From Candidatus Desulfatifera sulfidica (GTDB taxonomy: Bacteria > Desulfobacterota > Desulfobulbia > Desulfobulbales > Desulfocapsaceae), in the NCBI GenBank assembly GCA_014381505.1, contig JACNLK010000048.1:1-32979 (forward strand): a stretch of DNA of 32,979 bases, given 5' to 3'. Position numbers and translations under genes: made by a program. The notes under the pieces are model-generated. The model was not told where the DNA came from, did no database searches, and worked only from the letters and a program-made list of their open reading frames with translations. Positions 2,755 to 24,637 of the stretch are shown here, in pieces. The first letter of the stretch is position 1; each line of letters starts with the position of its first letter.

Positions 2755-2784
2755 TTGACATCATTACTTGAGGGAAGCTATGAT
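2755..2784 (+). promoter_or_regulatory. Sigma-70 promoter for the cobalamin riboswitch transcript
   Basis: TTGACA (2755-2760) - 18 bp - TATGAT (2779-2784). Confidence 0.65.
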
Positions 2785-2858
2785 CTTATTCAGGTTGCTT
2801 TAAACCTCAGTAATCGTTTCCTGAGAGGAGGGGATCTGTCTTTATAGCAATCTGAGGT

Positions 2859-3031
2859 CATTCAGGTGTCCGCTTTGCGGACGGTAATAGGGAACGCCGT
2901 GTAAATCGGCGATGGGCCCGCCGCTGTGACTGGTGACAATTCTTGCTATGTGTATGCCACTGCAGCTGAATTTTGGTTGTGGGAAGGCGCAGGATGCGGT
3001 TGAACCGGAAGTCAGAAGACCTGCCTGAATG
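2859..3031 (+). promoter_or_regulatory. Cobalamin (B12) riboswitch aptamer
   Basis: Conserved core 'taatagggaacgccgtgtaaatcggcgatgggcccgccgctgtgac' and B12 box 'ccggaagtcagaagacctgcct'. P1 can form between cattcagg (2859-2866) and cctgaatg (3024-3031). Confidence 0.92.
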
Positions 3032-3116
3032 AGCGGCCTCTCCATGCTTGGGGGGGCGGCTGATTACCGTCGTGGATCAACGGTAATTGTTGCTGATCAC
3101 GTGGATAATTTGGGAC

Positions 3117-3158
3117 ATCCTCGGATCGATGTTGTTTATCGGTCTGGGGATTTTTTTT
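3117..3158 (+). terminator. Intrinsic terminator, probable riboswitch expression platform
   Basis: atcctcggatcgat (3117-3130) pairs with atcggtctggggat (3138-3151) with a few G-U pairs; 7-nt loop; 8 T at 3151-3158; 86 nt after the aptamer. Confidence 0.6.
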
Positions 3159-3341
3159 GCCCGGATCATACTCTCATGGGTATTTTGAAAAATGAGTATT
3201 TTCGTTCAAGATGAAGACGTGCTCAAAGTTTTACCCCAGGCATATGGCTGATATTCTGAGGACAAAGTTTTGAGTGCGACCTGGCTTTTGGGTGAAAAGA
3301 CAATTCTTCAAGGTAGCCTTATTTTTTTTCAGGAGGTTTTC

Positions 3342-3434
3342 ATGCGAATCAGTGAACGGATCATGACTAAAATTGTTCTTACTCAGATCAAAGACTGGGA
3401 CAGCTTTCAACGTATAATGCGTTATTTGCTGTAG
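3342..3434 (+). CDS. Small ORF, 30 aa (MRISERIMTKIVLTQIKDWDSFQRIMRYLL), unknown function
   Basis: Near-consensus SD aggaggttttc immediately upstream of ATG; downstream of the riboswitch and terminator; followed by a strong hairpin. Below the length cut-off of the supplied ORF track. Confidence 0.4.
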   Translation: MRISERIMTKIVLTQIKDWDSFQRIMRYLL

Positions 3435-3452
3435 AGGGAAAGAAACTCAAAT

Positions 3453-3489
3453 GATCCGGGGGGCTGCCTGGTGGGCAGTCCCCCGGATC
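3453..3489 (-). terminator. Strong hairpin between the small ORF and the feoB 3' end (likely feoB terminator, possibly bidirectional)
   Basis: 16-bp stem gatccggggggctgcc/ggcagtcccccggatc with one G-T pair; T-rich tract (atttgagtttcttt) on the minus-strand side, 17 nt past the feoB stop. Confidence 0.6.
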
Positions 3490-3505
3490 AGAAGAAGCAA
3501 AAGAA

Positions 3506-5728
3506 TCAGCCCAGACCCAGAAACATGCCGATTTGATAGACGGCCACAGACAGTATAAAGGCAAAGACAGTATTGAACGCCATGGAAAAATAGGCCCATT
3601 TCCAGGTGCCTGCCTCTTTGGCAATACAGATGACCGTGACAAAGCAGGGGGCGTAGAACATAATAAACAACATGGCCGAAACAGCAATCACCCGGTTCCA
3701 GTGTGGTGACTCAAGTAAGCGATCACCCAAAGGCTGAGAGGCGTCTGCCTCAATTTCGCCCATGGAGTAGGCCGTGCCCAGGGTCGAAACAATGACTTCT
3801 TTTGCAGCAAAGCCACCCATGAGTGCAATATTGGTTCGCCACTCAAAGCCGGCCATTTGGGAGATCGGTTCCAGGCTTGTCCCGATTTGCCCGGCCAGGG
3901 AATGGCGCAGGGCTGCTTCAGACTCTATGACATCAATGGTTGTGAGTTGATCCTGAAGTTCTTGAGACGCTGTGGACAGTTCCTCTCCGGCTGTGGCATC
4001 TTCAGAGCTCTGGGTGATCTTTTCAGCATCAATGTCTGACATAATTGCTTGACGTTGTGCTTCAAAGTTTGCGGCCTCATCTTCTGGAAGACCTGGATAC
4101 GTCATCATGGCCCAGAGGACAACGGAAAAGGCGAGAATTACAGTACCTGCCTTTTTAATGTACTGCCAGGTACGCTCCCAGGTGTGAATTGCCAAACCTT
4201 TGGCAGTTGGAAAACGGTAAGGGGGGAGTTCCATGACAAATGGAGTGGGAGCGCCCTTCAGGACTGTTGATCGAAGTATCTTGGCCGATATCAGGGCTAC
4301 CAGCCAGGCCAGAAGGGTGAAAAACATCATGTAGCTGGCCTTGTGGTCGGAAAAGAAAGCTCCGATAAGGAGGGCCAGGACAGGAACTTTGGCCCCGCAG
4401 TTCATAAAGGGCACTGTGAGCAGGGTGGCCATGCGCTCCTTGGGTGAACGCATGGTACGTGTAGCCATAACACCGGGAACAGCGCAGCCACCGGCAATAC
4501 CACCAGAAATGATGAATGGCATAACGGATGAGCCGTGCAGTCCAAATATCCGAAAAATTCTATCCATCATAAAGGCGACTCGGGCCAGGTATCCGGAATC
4601 CTCAAGAATTGAGATTCCAAGGAACATAAACATGATTAAAGGTACAAAACCCAGGACTCCACCAACTCCATCAATGACTCCCGAGATGAGCATTGAACGC
4701 AATGGTCCTTCGGCCATATTGTTGCGAACTGTATCACCCAGGAATACAAAAACATTTTCCATCCAGCCAACCGGGATTTCACTCCATGTGAAAGTGAACT
4801 GGTAAAGGCCGAAAAGGATAAGGAGCATAGCCACGGGGCCAAAAAACCGATTGGTGAGAACTTTGTCGATCCGATCAGTGATGTGAAGCCTGTCCTGGTC
4901 AAAAGTGTGAGTGACAATTCCCTGGCGGAGGATTGATTTGATGAAGCCGTAGCGGTGATCAGCGATGATTGACTCTGGAAAAACTTCTGTCGTCTTAAGC
5001 GTGTGATCAGATACGGAAGTGACTTGGCTCTCTATTGTCTGGGCTGTGGTTTTGGATTCATCCTGTCCTTTGGAAAGGATCAGGTCGTCGTGTTCCAGGT
5101 ACTTGATTGCCGTATATCTCGATGGGTAACTCTCGGTGAGAAAATTTTGTTCATCAATGATGGCCATCAGGTCGAGAATTGTTTCGTCAAGATCTTCACC
5201 GTAGGAGATATGGGTGGGAATCCATGGTTTGTTTTCCCGGGCAACCTCCATGGCGGCAGTCATCAGTTCGTCCGTTCCCTGGCCATTACGGGCAATGATA
5301 GGTATGACAGGCACCCCAAGGAGTTCTGTGAGCTTTTCCGCCTTGATCTTAATGCCGCGATCCTTGGCAACATCGATCATATTCAGGGCGATAACAATGG
5401 GGATGCCAAGTTCTAAGAACTGGCAGGTGAGATAAAGATTGCGCTCAAGGTTGGAGGCATCAATGATGTTGATCACAACTTTTGGTCGTTGGTTGATCAG
5501 GTAATCGCGTGCGACAACTTCTTCTTCTGAGTAGGCCGTGAGCGAATAAGTGCCAGGTAGATCAGTAATTATCACATGTTGATTGTCGAGTGTTAAAGAG
5601 CCCTCTTTGTAGTCGACGGTGATACCGGGATAGTTACCAACATGTTGACGAGCACCTGTTAGGTGATTGAAAAGAGTGGTTTTACCGGCGTTGGGGTTAC
5701 CAGCCAGGGCCATAAGGAATTTGTTCAT
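3506..5728 (-). CDS. feoB: Ferrous iron transport protein B
   Basis: 740 aa; N-terminal G protein (ALAGNPNAGKTTLFNHLTGARQHVGNYPGITVD, DLPGTYSL), FeoB permease motifs (GGIAGGCAVPGVMATRTM, GGFAAKEVIVSTLGTAY). Confidence 0.97.
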   Translation of the reverse strand: MNKFLMALAGNPNAGKTTLFNHLTGARQHVGNYPGITVDYKEGSLTLDNQHVIITDLPGTYSLTAYSEEEVVARDYLINQRPKVVINIIDASNLERNLYLTCQFLELGIPIVIALNMIDVAKDRGIKIKAEKLTELLGVPVIPIIARNGQGTDELMTAAMEVARENKPWIPTHISYGEDLDETILDLMAIIDEQNFLTESYPSRYTAIKYLEHDDLILSKGQDESKTTAQTIESQVTSVSDHTLKTTEVFPESIIADHRYGFIKSILRQGIVTHTFDQDRLHITDRIDKVLTNRFFGPVAMLLILFGLYQFTFTWSEIPVGWMENVFVFLGDTVRNNMAEGPLRSMLISGVIDGVGGVLGFVPLIMFMFLGISILEDSGYLARVAFMMDRIFRIFGLHGSSVMPFIISGGIAGGCAVPGVMATRTMRSPKERMATLLTVPFMNCGAKVPVLALLIGAFFSDHKASYMMFFTLLAWLVALISAKILRSTVLKGAPTPFVMELPPYRFPTAKGLAIHTWERTWQYIKKAGTVILAFSVVLWAMMTYPGLPEDEAANFEAQRQAIMSDIDAEKITQSSEDATAGEELSTASQELQDQLTTIDVIESEAALRHSLAGQIGTSLEPISQMAGFEWRTNIALMGGFAAKEVIVSTLGTAYSMGEIEADASQPLGDRLLESPHWNRVIAVSAMLFIMFYAPCFVTVICIAKEAGTWKWAYFSMAFNTVFAFILSVAVYQIGMFLGLG

Positions 5729-5828: not shown

Positions 5829-6002
5829 TCAGTGCAGATCTTTTTTGGGTAAATCGCAGATATTGTCGCAACCGGAACAACTGCAACCACAACCACCGGA
5901 GGTATCCAGGTTGGCCGCTCGTTTGAATTGGCGATAAAGCTTGATGCCGATAAAAAAAATGCAAATGACAACAGCAATAATGATGGCAATAGTCTGGAAC
6001 AT
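5829..6002 (-). CDS. FeoB-associated Cys-rich membrane protein (57 aa)
   Basis: Read directly from the minus strand: MFQTIAIIIAVVICIFFIGIKLYRQFKRAANLDTSGGCGCSCSGCDNICDLPKKDLH*. One TM helix plus CGCSCSGCDNIC cluster; lies between feoA and feoB. Not in the supplied ORF track. Confidence 0.85.
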   Translation of the reverse strand: MFQTIAIIIAVVICIFFIGIKLYRQFKRAANLDTSGGCGCSCSGCDNICDLPKKDLH

Positions 6003-24480: not shown

Positions 24481-24637
24481 ATGGGTGCGGGTATCATTGG
24501 GAAATGAGGATTTTCATTCAGAATCAGGGCGCGCTCAGTCTATTACCGCAGGCATGCCATTGATCTCCCAATGATCAAAAGTTGAGCGCAATGCAGATAT
24601 CGGGTGAAAAGAGAATTTTTCAGGGGAACCATGAGAT

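Follow-up and report, generated by a model that had tools for sequence, protein, structure and literature searches.

In Candidatus Desulfatifera sulfidica, a cobalamin riboswitch was found to precede a gene of 30 codons which is under purifying selection at the protein level and belongs to a family of the order Desulfobulbales. The window, the whole stretch of DNA that was analysed, comprises 32,979 nucleotides. Comparison of the related loci suggests that the 30-residue protein has been retained over a long time in these sulfur-cycling bacteria, beside B12-uptake genes or often alone; a so far undescribed role in the Desulfobulbales response to B12 shortage is probable. The reading considered likely is that of a B12-starvation microprotein which acts in trans, and the ORF of which is translationally coupled to any btuB-type gene that follows it. 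A wider version is given about even chances: the unit would be an order-wide, stand-alone riboswitch-microprotein module, the product of which is made only at B12 scarcity, acts freely and either regulates or spares a system that depends on B12 or takes up corrinoids, as a previously undescribed protein second messenger of cobalamin starvation.

The riboswitch leader and the ends of the unit

On the plus strand, a sigma-70-like promoter, TTGACA-N18-TATGAT, is located at positions 2755-2784. It matches the consensus at 11 of 12 positions, and its score was not equalled by any shuffle of the upstream region. At the matching place in a sister species of the same genus, TTGACT-N17-TACAAT was read from the alignment; a sigma-70 promoter shared by the family was not identified, most of the relatives' upstream regions giving no signal above shuffles. 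The aptamer (2847-3042, plus strand) covers positions 1-189 of the RF00174 model with 112.8 bits (E 9e-28), compared to a curated cut-off of 31.5, and the leader RNA is unexceptional as an RF00174 member. Further downstream in the leader, an intrinsic terminator at 3117-3158 on the plus strand, consisting of a stem of 15 pairs (3117-3151) and a T8 tract, represents the expression platform and is near-identical in the sister species. Among the relatives, the T run is typically located 40-100 nt upstream of the start codon of the open reading frame (ORF). Riboswitches in which an RF00174 aptamer is combined with an intrinsic terminator shut genes off on cobalamin binding. OFF control is therefore expected of this leader, and the microprotein would be made under B12 scarcity: with plentiful cobalamin the transcript would stop at 3158, and with scarce cobalamin RNA polymerase would read through and the 30-residue protein would be produced.

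The microprotein gene (MRISERIMTKIVLTQIKDWDSFQRIMRYLL) is located at 3342-3434 on the plus strand, with the Shine-Dalgarno sequence AGGAGG (3331-3336, plus strand) six bases upstream; a strong Shine-Dalgarno sequence is present in nearly all relatives. The unit is closed by a very stable hairpin of 18 bp at about 3452-3490 (-40.4 kcal/mol, z = -7.1), between the ORF and the convergent gene feoB, which was called at 3506-5728 on the minus strand and lies outside the unit. This hairpin has no U tract on the plus strand and is probably the end of the transcript. The sister species has a hairpin at the same place with a different sequence, and hairpins are found at the end of many units in relatives that are solitary, being followed by neither a receptor nor a chelatase gene; several of these are perfect, with 15-22 bp. 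On the minus strand, an ORF of 57 aa is present at 5829-6002, between feoB and feoA; it has a single hydrophobic segment, its tail is rich in Cys, and it resembles FeoB-associated small membrane proteins.

An earlier note, made from the letters of this DNA alone, had described a consensus-like promoter, an aptamer at 2859-3031, the terminator at 3117-3158, a 30-codon ORF with a near-perfect Shine-Dalgarno sequence, a hairpin at 3453-3489 and feoB on the opposite strand thereafter. All of these were recovered, the aptamer at full length by the RF00174 scan that the note had proposed, and the Shine-Dalgarno sequence proved to be perfect. The note had also stated that no B12 gene is found downstream, and in the window no gene for B12 uptake or synthesis directly follows the ORF. 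Since most of the loci lack the downstream gene by which a riboswitch-btuB unit is defined, the unit does not count as a standard one.

Between terminator and ORF, a dispersed palindromic, MITE-like repeat of about 141 bp is inserted at 3178-3318. It is absent from the sister locus and lies outside the conserved unit. The repeat has about 40 matches in the host genome, compared to about 12 in that of the sister species, and a second copy is present in the window at 24489-24625. A copy folds into a single long hairpin; the ends are GGGTACTTTGAAAAAT and ATTTTTCAAGGTAGCC, and short direct repeats are apparent at many flanks. At the locus described here, the hairpin of the repeat is followed by TTATTTTTTTT (3319-3329), directly before the Shine-Dalgarno sequence. 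In the host species the insertion may serve as an additional terminator and might lower the expression of the microprotein, a point which counts against the main reading.

Codon-level selection and the microprotein family

The sister genome, which is labelled uncultured Desulfobulbaceae bacterium, contains aptamer, terminator, ORF and convergent feoB in the identical order. In the alignment of the two loci, aptamer, terminator, Shine-Dalgarno sequence and ORF are close, and the remaining intergenic DNA has largely diverged. The two peptides are 83% identical, and 63% of the synonymous sites of the ORF differ compared to 10% of the nonsynonymous sites, corresponding to a pN/pS of about 0.16. 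In all nine comparisons, the ORF gave a pN/pS of 0.12-0.30, for solitary groups and receptor-operon groups alike, and the controls, consisting of the two other frames and 84 nt upstream, gave about 0.8-2.9 in eight lineage groups, for which the ORF values were 0.125-0.28; these values are pairwise sums within groups and not independent, and the contrast between ORF and control was the same in every group. For the solitary groups, values of 0.17 (f12), 0.28 (g7) and 0.24-0.28 (g5) were obtained. Eighteen solitary sequences from g7 and from g1, the genus of the window, gave 0.30, with differences of 0.31/0.19/0.51 by codon position. The check for synonymous-biased substitution suggested in the earlier note showed the synonymous excess in every lineage tested, which in a conserved frame is the pattern of a protein-coding gene.

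The same data bear on the suggestion that the unit is the remnant of a lost B12 gene, a riboswitch that has outlived its gene with an ORF present by chance. In favour of such a loss, the window has no B12 gene after the unit, and a receptor gene occupies that position in other families. The note had named as a sign of decay an ORF that is not conserved while its flanks are; the opposite was found: ORF, Shine-Dalgarno sequence, terminator and aptamer are intact and are retained by the sister species, whereas the other intergenic DNA has mostly diverged. Moreover, the ORF is conserved throughout the family and is itself the selected product in many species. The probability left for decay is minimal, and in the form stated it is ruled out by the ORF conservation and the codon pattern.

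The core of the microprotein family is KDWDSFQ. Alignment of 75 members showed no variation at the tryptophan of (K)DWD, and conservation in at least 90% of them for M1, E5, both aspartates, Q23 and R27. An AlphaFold2 model contains helices at residues 3-15 and 19-29, with a mean pLDDT of 83 and a pTM of 0.36, which for a helical-hairpin prediction of 30 residues is weak structural evidence. The protein is predicted to be soluble-looking, with two short helices flanking the invariant (K)DWD turn; a strand-plus-helix fold, guessed early from the sequence, was abandoned for the two helices of the model. With its conserved core in the middle of the peptide and its variable C-terminus, the protein appears to differ from typical arrest peptides. 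No useful match was identified in Pfam, NCBIfam or PHROGs, and matches in the PDB were weak and at chance level. Matches on plasmids or phages were not found, and searches of the literature, covering open-licence papers, returned no description of the family. It is thus without counterpart in the libraries and the open-licence literature searched.

Distribution, riboswitch linkage and downstream contexts

The searches for family members used two query sequences, those of the window and the sister species, and then 23. The ORF was identified in 107 of 258 Desulfobulbales genomes, representing 35 of the 69 genera of the order, mostly as a single copy per genome; in the approximately 151 genomes without a detected copy, the gene may be truly absent, too diverged or missed because the MAG is incomplete. 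Outside the Desulfobulbales, no convincing match was obtained in two phylum-wide samples of 395 genomes. When all GTDB species were scanned with a sequence pattern, the hits were Desulfobulbales-like records, with the exception of two or three loosely labelled MAGs. Desulfobulbales, including Desulfocapsa, are important anaerobes of the sulfur cycle, and the relatives carrying the family are Desulfocapsa and other Desulfobulbales MAGs.

An RF00174 match is located just upstream of the ORF and on the same strand in 77 of 80 loci, and a separate scan gave 19 of 20. Among the three loci without such a match, two are located at contig ends and one has none. The claim of a small protein under B12 control, one of several readings offered in the earlier note, is thereby strongly supported, since a conserved and selected family is tied to the riboswitch.

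The genes downstream of the ORF fall into three classes. Of 79 classifiable loci, about 25 have a TonB receptor gene next to the ORF or in the operon, and in many of these the start of the receptor gene overlaps the stop of the ORF as ATGA. A cobalt-chelatase context is present in five loci, four with a permease gene followed by CbiK and one, from a MAG, with an in-frame fusion. The remaining loci, about 49, are solitary and have many different neighbours: convergent feoB in g1 and g7, a convergent Qrc-like operon in g5 and assorted genes elsewhere. In other families the ORF stands immediately before a TonB receptor gene, and some solitary units are therefore likely to have arisen by separation from a receptor operon. 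In the fusion locus, L188 (G003:C529), the frame of the small ORF stays open through a signal-peptide-like segment and into a CbiK-like sequence; the locus is given no weight, as it comes from a single fragmented MAG and is cut at the contig end. A TPP riboswitch match is located on the opposite strand in its vicinity.

The convergent feoB had led to the proposal that the product of the unit is an RNA, either a small RNA under B12 control or an antisense RNA to feoB that ties cobalamin to iron uptake. Both g1 species and almost every g7 locus have feoB in convergent orientation, and in Listeria B12 riboswitches control antisense or regulatory RNAs (PMC9943018, PMC8079631). However, the neighbour is limited to g1 and one other genus, g7, and is replaced by unrelated genes in the other lineages; strong hairpins close the solitary units and stand between ORF and feoB, and the selection is patterned by codons. 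An RNA product is very improbable, and antisense to feoB is not supported as a conserved function on account of the neighbour turnover and the intervening hairpins.

Mode of action and comparison with known systems

The microprotein is best read as acting in trans, because selection on the solitary copies is at the protein level and no neighbour is constant; a constant target in cis is not available, since the solitary loci are flanked by many different genes. A B12-dependent enzyme, or a step in the use of corrinoids or cobalt, would be the probable point of action of the protein. In loci with a TonB receptor gene downstream, ribosomes translating the small ORF would in addition be fed into the receptor gene by way of the stop-start overlap.

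MntS and MgtS of E. coli are microproteins induced by starvation. The microprotein of the Desulfobulbales resembles them as a tiny protein for metal or cofactor scarcity that would act in trans; it differs in its control by a riboswitch, and no relation in sequence was shown. Compared to cobalamin riboswitch-btuB attenuation units, the same RF00174 aptamer is used and a TonB receptor follows in about 25 relatives, whereas the Desulfobulbales add a conserved microprotein, located between terminator and receptor or alone.

For Mycobacterium tuberculosis, the B12 riboswitches of ppe2 and metE were reported to have translated uORFs which modulate the downstream gene, and the ppe2 switch was proposed as a class IIb variant with translational OFF control (PMC11260477). 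Both systems have a B12 riboswitch followed by a short ORF, and the stop-start overlap of ppe2 with the next gene is matched in the receptor operons of the Desulfobulbales, which by analogy suggests translational coupling there. In contrast, the riboswitch variant and the peptides differ, and in Desulfobulbales conservation extends to the peptide itself and most units have no B12 gene downstream.

The mycobacterial system is also the precedent, with its AUGA coupling (PMC11260477), for the view that the ORF is a cis-acting leader, the translation of which sets the next gene by termination-reinitiation, with the solitary copies as leftovers of receptor operons. The frequent ATGA overlap in the TonB-receptor loci agrees with such a role. 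However, a uORF serving as a landing pad needs no conservation of its amino acids and leftovers should decay, and the solitary copies of f12, g7 and g5 are under equal purifying selection. A purely leader-type role is therefore unlikely, and the trans-acting microprotein remains the preferred interpretation. If the microprotein acts in trans, an extra layer would be added to the bacterial B12 economy; if the ORF is a leader, the uORF-riboswitch coupling known from Mycobacterium would be extended to a Gram-negative order.

In Listeria, AspocR and Rli55 are regulatory RNAs controlled by B12 riboswitches (PMC9943018, PMC8079631). They share with the unit described here a B12 riboswitch without an ordinary B12 protein gene; the product in the Desulfobulbales differs from a regulatory RNA in being a protein under purifying selection. 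Riboswitches with a seemingly empty downstream region are often set aside. In this case, an apparently orphan switch revealed an uncatalogued protein family, the function of which is directly testable because the signal, cobalamin shortage, is already known.

In the host genome (2.08 Mb, 94% complete), genes were identified for a B12-dependent ribonucleotide reductase and for a CbiK chelatase, and the single other cobalamin riboswitch precedes a TonB receptor gene with no small ORF between. Among the relatives, two loci, L156 (G049:C53) and L164 (G249:C2), contain three cobalamin riboswitches in tandem, in a region of about 2.2 kb that includes the small ORF and the permease-CbiK genes. Solitary units are located 459-964 nt upstream of nrdJ in three loci (L204, L205, L187). 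An operon of solitary unit and nrdJ was rejected, as in two of the three a separate upstream region bearing a palindrome intervenes. This palindrome, of the type ACAACATGTTGT, precedes nrdJ in L204 and L205 and is perhaps an NrdR-type operator.
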